Positions 1,292-9,723 of a stretch of 64,000 nt of DNA are shown here, piece after piece; the first letter of the stretch is position 1; each line of letters begins with the position of its first letter. The notes beneath the pieces were generated by a model. It did no database searches. It worked only from the letters and a program-made list of their open reading frames with translations, and had not been told where the DNA came from. Both the position numbers and the translations under genes were made by a program. Source of the stretch: Bryobacterales bacterium (GTDB lineage: Bacteria > Acidobacteriota > Terriglobia > Bryobacterales > Bryobacteraceae); NCBI GenBank assembly GCA_003170295.1, contig PNAJ01000059.1, positions 1-64,000 of the forward strand, read 5' to 3'.

Positions 1292-1323
1292 TCCACTTCT
1301 TCGGGGACAGTCCGCTATGGTCC
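1292..1323 (+). repeat. Left inverted end of RAYT element
   Basis: Contains TCGGGGACAGTCCGCTATGG. Its counterpart lies inverted at 2061-2091. It overlaps the last codons and stop of the transposase gene. Confidence 0.7.
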
Positions 1324-2022
1324 GAAGTGCCGGATTGCCCTTCGACCATCACGCTGCGGCTTGGCGAGCGCGAACTCCTTGATGCGGGGCAACTGCCGGT
1401 CGAGTTGCGCCTCTAACTGGTCAATAAAGCCTTCGCTACCAACAGGTCGTCCGGTGAACGTCGCCCGCTGAAGCGCTCGGACGGTGGAAAGATCCTCGGG
1501 TGCGACCAGAAGCGAGTGCCAGTTTTCGGCGGCTCCGTGGTCCTGCCAGAAGCTCATATCCAGGATTCCTCTGGGGTCATGACCCGTGAGGTGAACGTTG
1601 GCGCTCGACCACGGATATTGCTCCACGCTTTCTGCGAGGCCGGCGTGCACGGGGTTCCGCTCCACATAACGAAGGGCGGCCGCCAGGTGAGCCGAATCGA
1701 GGGCGCAGGAATAGAAGCGATTTTGCCAGAGGTGGCCGGTGCGGCCGCGCCGCGCATTGAGATAAGTGGCGTAGCGGCCATGGGCTCGGCGGAGCGCAAC
1801 TCCAAGCGAATCAGGCTCATCCGGGATCGCGACCAGATGAACATGATTCGGCATCAGGCAATAAGCGAGGATGCGGAGGTTCGCCTGGCGGGCCGAGGTG
1901 CGGAGCCAATCGAGATAGACCTCGCGATCGGCGTGAGTGAAGAAGACAGGCTGGCGGTCGGTTCCGCGCTGGGTAATGTGATGGGCAAAACCGACGGCGA
2001 TGGCTCGGGCAAATCGTGGCAT
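1315..2022 (-). CDS. REP-associated tyrosine transposase (IS200-like, Y1 fold)
   Basis: 235 residues beginning MPRFARAIAVGFAHHITQRG. The central MPNHVHLVAIP is the HUH metal-binding motif of Y1 transposases, and the arrangement FFTHADREVYLDWL, LAYCLMPNHVH, GRTGHLWQNRFYSCALD and YVERNPVHAGL is the standard RAYT pattern, with the catalytic tyrosine expected in the YVERNP region or the helix before it. These enzymes cut and rejoin single-stranded DNA at REP hairpins. Length fits the family, so the gene looks intact. It sits alone between an AbrB-like gene and a LiaF-like operon, enclosed by inverted sequence copies. Confidence 0.92.
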   Translation of the reverse strand: MPRFARAIAVGFAHHITQRGTDRQPVFFTHADREVYLDWLRTSARQANLRILAYCLMPNHVHLVAIPDEPDSLGVALRRAHGRYATYLNARRGRTGHLWQNRFYSCALDSAHLAAALRYVERNPVHAGLAESVEQYPWSSANVHLTGHDPRGILDMSFWQDHGAAENWHSLLVAPEDLSTVRALQRATFTGRPVGSEGFIDQLEAQLDRQLPRIKEFALAKPQRDGRRAIRHFGP

Positions 2023-2060: not shown

Positions 2061-2091
2061 GTACCATAGCCGACTGTCCCCGAAGTGGGAT
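2061..2091 (-). repeat. Right inverted end of RAYT element
   Basis: Contains CCATAGCCGACTGTCCCCGA, the inverted partner of 1292-1323. It lies 39 bp upstream of the transposase start codon, so it may also carry the promoter of that gene. Confidence 0.7.
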
Positions 2092-2197
2092 GGGGGTGCG
2101 CGCGATGCCACTCGCCGATGTGGCGATGGCGTTCGCCGAATCGACCGTTCTCCTGCGCCTTCAGCCTGTTACGATCACATTGGAAGGATTTTCGCTA

Positions 2198-3007
2198 ATG
2201 GACCCTCTCATTCGGGCACGGTGGAGTCGGGACCGCTACCGCGGCCACGGAGGCTTGATCGGCGGCGTCATCCTGGCGGGTATTGGCGTACTGCTGCTGC
2301 TACAGAATCTCGGCATCCCTTATTTCGACGACCTGGAGCGCTACTGGCCCGTGATCCTGATCATCGTCGGCATTGCGCACGCCGCGCGCTCCATGGGAAT
2401 GGGCGGCCGGGTCTGGGGAGGAGCGGTCTTCGCGGCCGGCGTCATTTTTCTGCTCAATAATTTTGGCGTCATTCACGGCGACGTGTGGCGATTCTTTTGG
2501 CCGGGGATTCTCATCTTGATCGGGCTCGGTATGCTGGCGCGGAGTATCGATCGCCACACTTCTGTATACACTCCGGGAGCGAGCGCGGCGGGCGCGAAAA
2601 AGATGGCGGACGATATCAAGGAGCGAATTGTTTCGGACTGGGGTAAATCCCAAACGTCGAGCTCGATTAACCACATGAGCGAGTGGGCCATTTTTGGCGG
2701 GACGCGGCGCCGCATCGATTCGCAGGATTTCCAGGGCGGCGAGGCGTTCGCGATGTTTGGAGGCGTGGAGATCGACCTGCGCAAAGCGGCGTCGACGCGC
2801 GACGAGCTGCTTATCGAAGCGAACGCGATTTTCGGAGGGATCGAGCTGCGCGTTCCGGAAACATGGAGTGTCACAGTACGCGGCGCGGGCATTTTCGGCG
2901 GCTATGAAGATAAGACTATGGACACGCGCGTGACGGCGGACACCAAGCAGCCGCATCTGATCGTCAACGGGTTTGCCGTGTTCGGCGGCGTAACGATTCA
3001 GAACTGA
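2198..3007 (+). CDS. LiaF-like membrane protein (DUF5668 plus cell-wall-stress response domain)
   Basis: 269 residues. The N-terminal half has about four hydrophobic segments in a LiaF-type transmembrane domain (GGLIGGVILAGIGVLLLLQN, YWPVILIIVGIAHA, GAVFAAGVIFLLNNFG, FFWPGILILIGLGML). The C-terminal half is the repeated IFGG/MFGG pattern (WAIFGGTRR, AMFGGVEIDL, AIFGGIELR, GIFGGYE, AVFGGVTI) of the beta-helix domain found in LiaF and related bacterial proteins. LiaF restrains a histidine kinase that answers envelope damage; the same role is inferred here because a LytS-type kinase follows after 1 bp. The start at 2198 is supported by GGAAGGA about ten bases upstream. Confidence 0.88.
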   Translation: MDPLIRARWSRDRYRGHGGLIGGVILAGIGVLLLLQNLGIPYFDDLERYWPVILIIVGIAHAARSMGMGGRVWGGAVFAAGVIFLLNNFGVIHGDVWRFFWPGILILIGLGMLARSIDRHTSVYTPGASAAGAKKMADDIKERIVSDWGKSQTSSSINHMSEWAIFGGTRRRIDSQDFQGGEAFAMFGGVEIDLRKAASTRDELLIEANAIFGGIELRVPETWSVTVRGAGIFGGYEDKTMDTRVTADTKQPHLIVNGFAVFGGVTIQN

Positions 3008-3008
3008 A

Positions 3009-4034
3009 ATGCATCCGATTTTTTGCAAAAAAGCGCGATTCGCCGGCTACGTGCTGGTATGGGTCGTGATCGGTGTACTACTAACAGGTCTGCTCCAGAT
3101 CCCGGGAACACTCTCATTGCGCGAGTCCGCGCTGCTCGCCGCGCCGCTGTGTGTGCTGTACGCGTTCTTCTGTTTGACACCGTGGTACATGTGCAGGCAT
3201 CTGCCATTGCGCACGACCAATCCCCTGAAGTTGATCGTGCAGCATCTGGGTGCGGCTTTGCTCGCGTGTGGAATCTGGGTGAAGCTGGCCTATTTCATCG
3301 CGCGGCAGGGAATGCATGCCAACGCGCGGTTTCAGGCGGAATTGCCGCATCTGGTGGCGGTGGGATTATTGCTGTACACGGTCTCCGTCGCGATTCACTA
3401 TATGCAACTGGCGCAGCAGGCTTCGCGCGATGCGGAGTTGCTGGCTCGCGATGCCGAACTACGCGCGCTGAAGGCGCAGATCAATCCGCATTTTTTGTTT
3501 AACAGTCTGAATTCGATCACGGCGTTGACCACGGTGGATCCGGCGAAGGCGCGCGAGATGTGCATTCGCCTGTCGGACTTTTTGCGAAACACGCTGGGTC
3601 TGGGCGAGCGCGAGACGATTTCATGGCGCGAAGAATTGGCGCTTTCGCGCACTTATCTGGACGTCGAGCAAGTGCGCTTCGGCTCGCGCCTGCGGGTCGA
3701 GATCGACGTCGATGACGATTGCGCCGACTGCATGGTGCCGCCGCTAGTGCTGCAGCCGTTGATCGAGAACGCAGTGAAGCACGGGATCGCTACTATGGTC
3801 GAGGGCGGATTGATTCGGGTGGAGGGGCATATCGTCGATGGGTCGATGGAGGTGAGTGTCGCGAACGATTTCGATCCCGATTCGCCTTCGCCGCGACGGA
3901 ATGGGCTGGGATTGCGCAACGTCCGCAGCCGCCTCGCGACCCGGTTCGGAGATGCGGCGCGCCTGACCGCGCATGTGGAGAACCATCAGTTTCGCGCCGA
4001 GATGGTGGTCCCTTATAATCGAGCGGAAACATAG
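3009..4034 (+). CDS. LytS/YehU-type sensor histidine kinase
   Basis: 341 residues with about four transmembrane segments in the first 130 residues and little periplasmic sequence, then a short coiled region rich in DAELLARDAELRALKAQ. The phospho-acceptor box INPHFLFNSLN places the histidine at residue 161. An ATP-binding N box lies at LIENAVKHG (about 251-259), followed by GLGLRNVRSRL. This is the His_kinase/HATPase_c pair of the LytS family, which usually signals to LytTR response regulators. The gene starts two bases after the stop of the LiaF-like gene and its own stop directly abuts the next start, so the three genes form one transcription unit. Confidence 0.95.
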   Translation: MHPIFCKKARFAGYVLVWVVIGVLLTGLLQIPGTLSLRESALLAAPLCVLYAFFCLTPWYMCRHLPLRTTNPLKLIVQHLGAALLACGIWVKLAYFIARQGMHANARFQAELPHLVAVGLLLYTVSVAIHYMQLAQQASRDAELLARDAELRALKAQINPHFLFNSLNSITALTTVDPAKAREMCIRLSDFLRNTLGLGERETISWREELALSRTYLDVEQVRFGSRLRVEIDVDDDCADCMVPPLVLQPLIENAVKHGIATMVEGGLIRVEGHIVDGSMEVSVANDFDPDSPSPRRNGLGLRNVRSRLATRFGDAARLTAHVENHQFRAEMVVPYNRAET

Positions 4035-5684
4035 ATGGAATCAGGAGCGTCGCTGGCGCATTACCGGATCGTTTCGCTGCTGGGCAAGGGCGGGATGGGA
4101 GAGGTGTTTCTAGCCGAGGATACGCGGCTTCATCGCAAAGTCGCGCTGAAGGTGCTGTTCCCGGAGGTCGCGCAGGATACCGACAAGCTGGCGCGTTTCG
4201 TGCAGGAGGCGCGGGCGGCGTCGGCGCTGAGCCATCCGAACGCCGCGCACATTTATGAGATCGGAGAAGCCAACGGGCGGCACTTTCTGGCGATGGAGTA
4301 CATCGAAGGCGCGACGCTCGAAACCCGCCTCTCAGGCGACCCGTTGCCCTTCGCGGAGATCGTCTCGATTGCAAGTCAGGTAGCCGATGCGCTCGACGCG
4401 GCGCACACGCGCGGGATTGTGCATCGCGATATTAAGCCCGCGAACCTGATGATCGACGCGAGGGGTCATGTCAAGGTGCTCGATTTCGGGCTCGCGAAGA
4501 TACTTCCGGTCGCGGGCACGGAGATTCCGGCATTTAATCAACTGACGAGTCAGCTCGCGACGCAGTTTCTCACGAGTGGCGGCGTGGTGCTGGGCACGGT
4601 TTCCTACATGAGCCCGGAACAGGCGCTCGGTCGTGACATCGATTACCGCACGGATTTGTTCAGCCTGGGCGTGGTGCTGTATCAAATGGCGAGCGGCAAA
4701 CTTCCGTTCGCGGGTGCATCGGCGCAGGAGACCCTGGCGAGGATTCTGCAATCGCCTCCGGATGCGTTGGGGCGGCTCAACTACGAATTGCCGGAGGAGT
4801 TCGAGCGCATCGTGCGGAAGTGCCTCGAAAAGGATCGCGACCGCCGGTTTCAATCGGCGCGCGAGCTGTTGGTGGACCTACGCAATCTGGAGCGAGCGCC
4901 AGCGGGAGAGAAAACGCGTTCCGGTGCGATTCGCGCGGTGATTGTCGACGACGAAGAACTCGCGCGGCACCTGCTGCGCGAGTATTTGAATCAGGCGGGC
5001 GGCGTGGAAGTGATTGCCGAATGCGCGAATGGATTCGAAGCGGTCAAGGTGATCGCGGAGCGCAAACCGGATCTTGTTTTTCTCGACATCCAGATGCCTA
5101 AGCTCGATGGATTTGAGGTGTTGGAACTGATCGATCCCTCGATCGCGGTGATTTACGTCACCGCTTACGATCAATACGCGATGCGGGCGTTCGATGCACA
5201 CGCGGTGGATTATTTGCTGAAGCCCTTCAGTGCGGATCGTTTTAAGAAAGCGCTGGAGCGCGCGCGGCAGCGCTTGGGCGAGCCAACTCCAGCGACGCCG
5301 CGAGTCTCGGCAACGGAGTTGTCCGCGGCGGCGCGTGCACCGGAGCAGAAACTGGAGCGAATCGTCGTCAAGGACGGCGCGAAGGTGCACATCATTCCCA
5401 TCGAAAAGCTCGATTACGTGGAAGCACAGGACGACTACGTGGCCCTGCGCAGCGAGAAGAAGAACTATCTCAAGCAGCAGACGATTTCAAGTGTCGAGAC
5501 GCAGCTCGATCCCAAGAAATTCGTGCGCATACATAGATCCTATATTGTTAATTTGGAGCGCATCGCGAGAATCGAACCGTATACCAAAGATAGCCGCGTG
5601 GCAGTGCTTTTAGACGGGACGCAATTGCCGGTGAGTCGCTCCGGGCACGCGCGATTGAAGGAACTGCTGGGCGAGGTTGGCTAG
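4035..5684 (+). CDS. Ser/Thr protein kinase - receiver - LytTR DNA-binding fusion protein
   Basis: 549 residues joining three domains. Residues 10-285 are a Hanks-type kinase with a glycine loop (GKGGMGEV, 17-24), catalytic lysine 39 in [12 protein letters not shown] with Asp132, DFG with Asp150 and an SPE motif at 193-195, so it appears active. Residues 299-415 are a response-regulator receiver with acidic pocket Asp305/Asp306, phospho-acceptor Asp351 in FLDIQMP, Thr376 and Lys396. Residues 440-545 are a LytTR DNA-binding domain ([25 protein letters not shown]). No membrane segment is seen. The protein should be a transcription factor whose receiver is phosphorylated by the LytS-type kinase encoded just upstream; what the fused kinase adds is unknown. 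Reading frame continuity through all joints argues against a merged artefact. Confidence 0.95.
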
Positions 5685-5688
5685 CCAG

Positions 5689-5788
5689 TGGCGCGAGCTT
5701 CAGCTCGCAGCGTCGGCTTCAGCCGGCGGGCACGGTTCCCAGATAGAACGGCGGCTCAAGCCACCGCTGCGAGCTGAAGCTCGCGCCA
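5689..5788. repeat. Palindromic intergenic repeat, family B copy 1
   Basis: Outer arms 5689-5712 and 5765-5788 are perfect 24-bp inverted repeats, each holding GCGAGCTTCAGCTCGC or its complement. Inside lies CGGCTTCAGCCGGCGGG. The unit fills almost the whole gap between two convergent genes and could act as a bidirectional terminator. A closely related unit lies at 25878-25967. Confidence 0.85.
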
Positions 5789-5790
5789 CA

Positions 5791-9074: not shown

Positions 9075-9473
9075 CTAAGCGCTCAAGAGTTTTTCACCCA
9101 ACGCGCGTCGCACGCCGTCCGGATCGCGAGCGATCACAGTCAAATACGCGCGGGCCGGTTGGTCCGGTTCACAGCGCCCCTGCTCCCAATCCCGCAAAGT
9201 GCCCAGCGGGATGTGATATCTGGCAGAGAATTCTTCCTGTGTAAGGTCGAGCGCCCGGCGAAGCGTTTTTGTACGCGGCACACGTCTGGCCGAGCGGCGT
9301 CGCTCAGGCGTCATCGGACGCGCGTCAGGGTCGGCCTCCGCCGCTGCTACAATCTCGGCTTCGGTCATTTGTCGCACTGGGGTAGCCGGAAACGGGCGTT
9401 CCCTGCCGTCCTTTAACACTTCGACAACTGTGCCGTCAGAACGAATTTTCGCGGTGATAATCTTCTCGCTCAT
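9075..9473 (-). CDS. XRE-type antitoxin partner of BrnT
   Basis: 132 residues. The C-terminal half is a helix-turn-helix, LRRALDLTQEEFSARYHIPLGTLRDWEQG, followed by AYLTVIARDPDGVRRAL, as in HigA-like and HTH-type antitoxins. The N-terminal part is charged and lacks a recognised fold. It overlaps the upstream BrnT-like toxin gene by 38 bp, which marks the two as a toxin-antitoxin pair. The classical BrnT partner is BrnA, which has a ribbon-helix-helix; an XRE partner is a known variant but less usual. Confidence 0.88.
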   Translation of the reverse strand: MSEKIITAKIRSDGTVVEVLKDGRERPFPATPVRQMTEAEIVAAAEADPDARPMTPERRRSARRVPRTKTLRRALDLTQEEFSARYHIPLGTLRDWEQGRCEPDQPARAYLTVIARDPDGVRRALGEKLLSA

Positions 9474-9723
9474 ATTTTTCCGCCCGTCTGGCTGAGATGA
9501 TCCGAATGCGACCCTCCCGCTCGGTGTAGGTCACGTGGAGCAGTATGTCACCGCACATGCCAATCAGATTGATACGTTCTTCACCATAATTCTCGCGGTC
9601 GTCGATCCGTTCGACAGAAAACGCGTCACGAAAAACCAGGACTGCTTCATGGAACGCGACGCCGTGATTGCGAAGGTTCGCCGATTCCTTTTCAGCATCC
9701 CATTCAAATAGCTCGCCACTCAT
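9436..9723 (-). CDS. BrnT-family ribonuclease toxin
   Basis: 95 residues starting MSGELFEWDAEKESANLRNHGVAF, the standard BrnT opening (F-E-W-D, K..N..KHGV). The motifs EAVLVFRD, ERINLIG, LLHVTYTEREGRIRIISARRAEKYEREDY also fit. BrnT folds like RelE-type RNases and stops translation; this is family knowledge. The gene comes first in its pair and the downstream antitoxin overlaps it. A 15-bp palindrome lies 4 bp upstream of the start codon and probably serves as the operator. Confidence 0.9.
   Translation of the reverse strand: MSGELFEWDAEKESANLRNHGVAFHEAVLVFRDAFSVERIDDRENYGEERINLIGMCGDILLHVTYTEREGRIRIISARRAEKYEREDYHRENSF

Follow-up and report, generated by a model that had tools for sequence, protein, structure and literature searches.

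A Hanks-type Ser/Thr kinase, a receiver and a LytTR DNA-binding domain are joined in one protein encoded in the window, which is the 64,000-nt stretch of DNA analyzed here. The comparison of related genomes indicates that an N-terminal kinase was acquired twice on the same kind of module, composed of a LiaF-like membrane protein, a histidine kinase (HK) and a LytTR response regulator. The fusion looks like a working junction of two signaling systems, and it can reasonably be inferred from its domains and their conservation that two-code signaling takes place on one DNA-binding protein.

Domain organization of the fused protein

The fused gene has an ATG start and zero internal stops, and both the open reading frame and Pfam agree with the initial annotation, which described a kinase, a complete receiver and a LytTR domain in a single uninterrupted frame (Table 1). 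The E-values of the Pkinase, Response_reg and LytTR matches to the 549-aa protein were 8.5e-48, 2.4e-26 and 3.5e-25, all far beyond the cut-off. The kinase part carries the G-loop, the VAIK lysine, the αC glutamate, the HRD and DFG motifs and the catalytic-loop asparagine of the Hanks-type fold, while the receiver contains the phosphoacceptor aspartate, acidic pocket, threonine and lysine of a LytTR response regulator and is followed by the LytTR domain. The residues named earlier, Lys39, Asp132 (HRD), Asp150 (DFG) and Asp351, are correct in the sequence. Among PDB structures the kinase domain was nearest to PknB, both by sequence and by predicted fold, with Stk1 and StkP also among the best matches; in contrast to these kinases, the receiver and LytTR domains come here after the kinase, and no sensor domain besides the receiver was found among Pfam domains. 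This makes the receiver the obvious input of the fusion. In the structure predicted by AlphaFold the domains were well folded (mean pLDDT 87.9), with low confidence in the activation loop (154-185) and the linker (289-295), and the pTM of 0.57 means that the relative placement of the domains in this model is uncertain.

Table 1. Features of the fused gene, its protein and the surrounding module in the window
Feature	Coordinates	Strand	Details
LiaF-like membrane protein	2090..3007	+	Pfam LiaI-LiaF-like_TM1, LiaF-TM, LiaF-like_C; first gene of the module
LytS-type histidine kinase (PF06580)	3009..4034	+	341 aa; ORF, Pfam; immediately upstream of the fused gene
Ser/Thr kinase-receiver-LytTR response regulator fusion	4035..5684	+	549 aa; ORF, Pfam, orthologues
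Hanks-type (PknB-like) Ser/Thr kinase domain	4062..4865	+	aa 10-277; Pfam, PknB/StkP matches, conservation
Kinase residues			K39, E58, D132, N137, D150; activation-loop T176, T180, T188
Receiver domain	4938..5255	+	aa 302-407; Pfam, conservation; D305, D306, D351, T376, K396
LytTR DNA-binding domain	5382..5669	+	aa 450-545; Pfam
Inverted repeat	5688..5789	.	arms of 41 nt with 90% complementarity; situated between the fused gene and a convergent gene downstream

Conservation of the kinase and the receiver

The alignment used for conservation contained 26 fused rows, 25 from the family of the window and one from the second group described below, with one row cut by a contig end. K39, E58, D132 and N137 did not vary in the 25 rows covering these positions; D150 was kept in 26/26, as were the receiver residues D305, D306, D351, T376 and K396. 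In the activation loop, position 180 was Thr or Ser in all 26 rows, T176 was Thr in 25/26 and T188 was Thr in 26/26. Judged by these conserved catalytic residues, both the kinase of the window and the receiver of the fusion are likely active, as had been proposed from the window alone.

The kinase is under purifying selection, with weaker constraint than the regulator half. Its dN/dS values were from 0.02 to 0.21 in 17/17 close pairs (Nei-Gojobori, chosen pairs), and those of REC and LytTR were 0.01-0.08 where computable and zero in one near-identical pair; many of the pairs are close to saturation at synonymous sites. In the linker that joins kinase and receiver, only 12-13 codons long, the values were 0.26-2.61 where computable. 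One fused protein (G274; L065/L168) is without part of the kinase C-lobe; its kinase may be inactive, and perhaps is decaying on a working regulator.

The LiaF-HK module around the fusion

There is no gap between the HK gene and the fused gene, as the ATG comes directly after the HK stop codon. In an alignment of 60 HKs, H161 of this HK belongs to the residues conserved at 98% or more. The C-terminal domain of the LiaF-like protein is the one which we take to have carried the older name DUF2154. In 21/25 fused loci the HK and the fused gene were co-stranded, together with LiaF, so that an adjacent cognate HK accompanies the response regulator there as it does in the window; the HK and kinase matches were 4 to 216 nt apart in these 21 loci. 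The HK was on the opposite strand in 1/25 loci, and none was found in 3/25 within the stretch examined around each gene, namely in G169 and G170, where the gene is complete, and in G044, where a contig end cuts it.

Among the loci of unfused orthologues, the HK and the response regulator were co-stranded in 33/48, the two matches being -6 to 53 nt apart. LiaF was present in 32 of these 33 loci, and the order LiaF, HK, REC-LytTR was kept in 32/48; the HK was on the opposite strand in 7/48, and no HK was found in the stretch examined in 8/48. The unfused modules thus consist of orthologous LiaF-like, HK and REC-LytTR proteins with the kinase domain absent, whereas in the fused loci the kinase follows the HK and shares the reading frame of the receiver behind it. 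The presence of two separate genes at this place in close relatives had been named as a finding that would speak against the fusion, and the unfused relatives have no kinase gene between the HK and the receiver. At one of the unfused loci examined (L045, G058) a separate, more distant Ser/Thr kinase gene is found beyond the regulator in divergent orientation (the two genes are at 3-773 and 1507-2232), and this kinase is not part of the clade that the fused kinases form.

No neighbor besides LiaF and HK was common to more than 3/25 fused loci in a crude neighbor clustering, which set aside one 7-locus cluster of shadow frames overlapping LiaF or HK genes and, by keeping the longest frames, missed the fused gene itself in 4/25 loci. 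The inverted repeat behind the fused gene is a possible terminator; a pattern taken from its left arm had no second exact match in the draft genome.

Distribution of the fusion

The fusion was found in 25/237 genomes of Bryobacteraceae, the family of the window, of which 24 have it in full length and one (G044) has it cut by a contig end. These genomes span 10 genera, including that of the window. By count of the listed matches, 74 more genomes of the family match by the REC-LytTR part alone, with E 1e-92 or better. A survey of 399 genomes of the class at E 1e-110 or better showed fusions in the family of the window only, while a survey of 396 genomes of the phylum showed, besides the window, a fusion in G601 only; these surveys, like those of the family and of the second class described below, scored few candidates per genome under strict E-value limits, so that fusions with weaker matches or another domain order may have escaped them. 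In a further homologue search 1/80 kept loci was fused (L066, Terriglobia MAG SRVP_25, whose frame is identical to that of G015), and the matches of the other 79 begin at residue 261 or later. Two long frames with receiver matches in other families, G683 (618 aa) and G737 (607 aa), were rejected, because they are ordinary LiaF-HK-RR loci in which the frame crosses the HK out of frame. None of the three other kinases checked in the genome of the window carries a receiver; the same genome (L011, G000:C1) also codes for a kinase fused to an FGE-sulfatase (sulfatase-modifying-factor) domain.

The view that an assembly or frame error merged two genes, or that the fusion is neutral, is hardly credible. 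The genome of the window is a draft of 168 contigs and 83% completeness, which could favor such a merger, but 24 more genomes of the family and the second fusion group have the fused frame as well, and in one relative (G169) it sits on a 6.18-Mb contig. This recurrence refutes the assembly artefact considered in the initial annotation, in which a stop between residues 285 and 300 would have been removed, and the purifying selection on the kinase domain argues against a neutral fusion.

A second, independent fusion

A second Pkinase-REC-LytTR group was found in seven genomes of family f53 (G601, G891, G893, G894, G898, G899 and G900; loci L214-L220 and L222-L228), which belongs to another class of the same phylum (7/14 genomes of the family and 7/193 of the class). 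The domains were assigned by Pfam on one protein (L206), and the alignment spans all seven. In 7/7 genomes the fused gene has a divergent LiaF gene as its neighbor, with an HK match beyond LiaF, and 7/7 rows keep K39, E58, D132, N137 and D150. Some variation was present elsewhere in the kinase, where G17 is replaced by Ser in 3/7 rows and T188 by Ser in 1/7, and T176 is missing. The kinases of this group form a clade (98/93) nearer to solo kinases sampled from their own class, and a single clade of all fused kinases was rejected (AU p 4.8e-47; 31 fused and 26 solo rows). The acquisition of an N-terminal kinase twice on the same kind of module, a point absent from the initial annotation, is the strongest argument for a function of the fused form.

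Probable gain and loss of the kinase within the family

The REC-LytTR tree was built from 87 rows, since of the 88 rows picked L048 was dropped for too few columns; duplicates L170, L204 and L192 were excluded. The tree contained nine changes between fused and unfused labels, at least six of them forced by strong branches, and the grouping of the 25 family fusions in one REC-LytTR clade was rejected (p 0.00016). The 24 full-length family kinases grouped together with supports of 93/96 and 81/96 in two kinase trees, the latter moderate and neither of them starred, and the solo relatives in these trees mostly have TPR or propeller tails. Most simply, these trees suggest one gain of the kinase in the family followed by about seven losses, and at least six. 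With a single family gain assumed and the tree rooted on the single row L205, the best tree gave 7 losses. Collapsing branches below 80 gave 7 to 9, and collapsing those below 95 gave 6 to 22, with a fused ancestor that then spans 86 rows. If the gain was single, the kinase would be dispensable in many lineages, because at least six losses of it left the regulator in place.

Given the supports of the kinase clade, close kinases may have been fused several times in the family instead of being gained once. The kinase domain may also have been transferred or recombined between regulators, though the kinase and REC-LytTR distances agree (Mantel r 0.77, 24 rows; 0/2000 permutations as high). The unfused regulators of G009 and G012 (L029 and L030) are nested on the tree, by starred branches, inside the fused group of G000, G015, G016 and G017, but this nesting is unsafe, as a tree holding the four fused rows together was not rejected (p 0.445).

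Comparison with known systems

The closest kinases found outside the fusion are acidobacterial kinases with TPR or PD40-propeller tails. The kinase domains of the 11 nearest examined solo kinases were 54 to 62% identical to that of the fusion, and in 10 of the solo kinases Pfam showed TPR in seven, PD40 in one, PD40 below the cut-off in one and no further domain in one, with a receiver in 0/10. The LiaF-like membrane protein is shared with the LiaFSR three-component system; the regulator of LiaFSR is of the NarL type, whereas the regulator here is of the LytTR type. HstK, reportedly a cyanobacterial fusion of a Ser/Thr kinase and a histidine kinase, likewise joins a Ser/Thr kinase to a two-component part, but to a histidine kinase and not to a DNA-binding response regulator.

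It had been stated initially that known LytTR regulators are of the receiver-LytTR form only, which is wrong in general, because regulators of this family without a receiver are described in the available parts of a report on LytTR Regulatory Systems (PMC6193735). According to the same parts, these regulators pair with membrane inhibitors, some of the membrane proteins carry DUF2154, and most members of the LytTR family are not two-component regulators (PMC6193735). The module described here resembles these systems in that a LytTR regulator is controlled together with a membrane protein, and differs from them in that they are without a receiver, a histidine kinase and a Ser/Thr kinase. The action of a Ser/Thr kinase in trans on a LytTR response regulator has already been published for StkP and ComE of Streptococcus pneumoniae, where, as in the fusion, a PknB-type kinase meets a REC-LytTR regulator with an HK of its own, and two phosphorylation chemistries meet on one regulator (PMC6010298, available parts). 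In that case, however, the two are separate proteins, as in the other cases of crosstalk between two-component systems and Ser/Thr kinases cited there, while here they form a single polypeptide with no conserved Ser/Thr at the receiver end.

The word "receiver" is absent from a survey, published in 2005, of the architectures of prokaryotic Ser/Thr kinases (PMC1262709), and its available passages on response regulators contain no such fusion. Judged by title or abstract start, none of the papers listed in full-text searches of an open-access library deals with the Pkinase-REC-LytTR architecture. Hence, the parts, the receiver-less LytTR systems and the crosstalk in trans are known, while a kinase welded to a DNA-binding response regulator was not found in these searches. 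Natural controls are at hand, namely close relatives with the same module without the kinase and the second independent fusion, and with these controls both the contribution of a Ser/Thr kinase to a response regulator and the direction of the signal become open to direct tests on the welded form.

Possible roles of the kinase

We propose that the fused protein is a two-output response regulator of the LiaF-HK-LytTR module, with the kinase as a second, receiver-controlled output, a reading to which we give somewhat less than an even chance. The HK would phosphorylate D351, and the phosphorylated receiver would dimerize, as reported for ComE, which would set the LytTR domains on DNA and bring two kinase domains together. 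The paired kinases would activate each other by phosphorylation in the activation loop (T180, possibly T176), and the active kinase would then phosphorylate partner proteins in trans, so that a single two-component signal would drive a Ser/Thr phosphorylation branch as well as transcription. Dimerization activates Hanks kinases such as PknB, and this, together with the dimerization of ComE and with the fact that no sensor domain was found, favors the kinase as an output switched by the receiver. More tentatively, and at clearly less than even confidence, the two groups may represent a class of receiver-driven Ser/Thr kinases, built twice on LiaF-HK-LytTR modules, in which an HK signal turns on, via receiver dimerization, a Hanks kinase sitting at a promoter. 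If this were true, a two-component system would directly command a Ser/Thr phosphorylation branch alongside transcription.

Alternatively, the kinase could be an input that phosphorylates its own regulator half, or that of its dimer partner, on Ser/Thr and so tunes DNA binding, which we regard as rather unlikely. StkP phosphorylates Thr128 of ComE in trans, raising its dimerization and DNA binding, and ComE dimerizes with phosphomimetic changes at either the receiver Asp or Thr128 (PMC6010298, available parts). Ser/Thr positions were compared in 25 fused and 46 unfused rows over about 250 columns, and since the rows are related the p values are too small. Ser/Thr was more common in the fused than in the unfused proteins at T483 (25/25 versus 36/46, p 0.011) and S485 (23/25 versus 27/46, p 0.003) of the LytTR domain and at receiver position 321 (9/25 versus 1/46, p 0.0002), all uncorrected, which makes these three positions weak acceptor candidates. 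After correction, however, T483 and S485 were not significant and position 321, which is unconserved, was borderline (about 0.05), while position 536, which alone passed correction (about 0.04), was poorer in Ser/Thr in the fused proteins (4/25 versus 29/46). Ser/Thr was conserved in at least 80% of fused rows at T376, S473, T483, S485, S486, S502, S520 and S534, none of which is particular to the fusion, and thus REC-LytTR has no Ser/Thr position that combines conservation among the fused proteins with specificity to them. Within residues 400-447, at the end of receiver helix 5, no Ser/Thr reached 80% in the 25 fused rows, which argues against a conserved site like Thr128 of ComE, a protein that is not part of the alignment. 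The earlier suggestion that two phosphorylation codes meet on one protein is hence a fair reading of the domains and their conservation, but its self-phosphorylation part is unsupported by conservation, and the missing fusion-specific acceptor favors substrates in trans.

It is decidedly improbable that the kinase serves the receiver mainly as a scaffold or a nucleotide-binding regulator and that its catalysis matters little. The repeated loss of the kinase suggested by the trees and the C-lobe deletion in L065 would agree with such a role, but the five catalytic residues are kept in every covering row of the 26-row alignment and throughout the second group.

Other features of the window

Upstream of the module the window contains an IS200-like (Y1_Tnp) transposase gene (1315-2022, minus strand). 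A BrnT-type toxin gene and an overlapping helix-turn-helix gene, the latter with a Pfam match just below the curated cut-off, lie at 9075-9723 on the minus strand and are likely a type II toxin-antitoxin pair.
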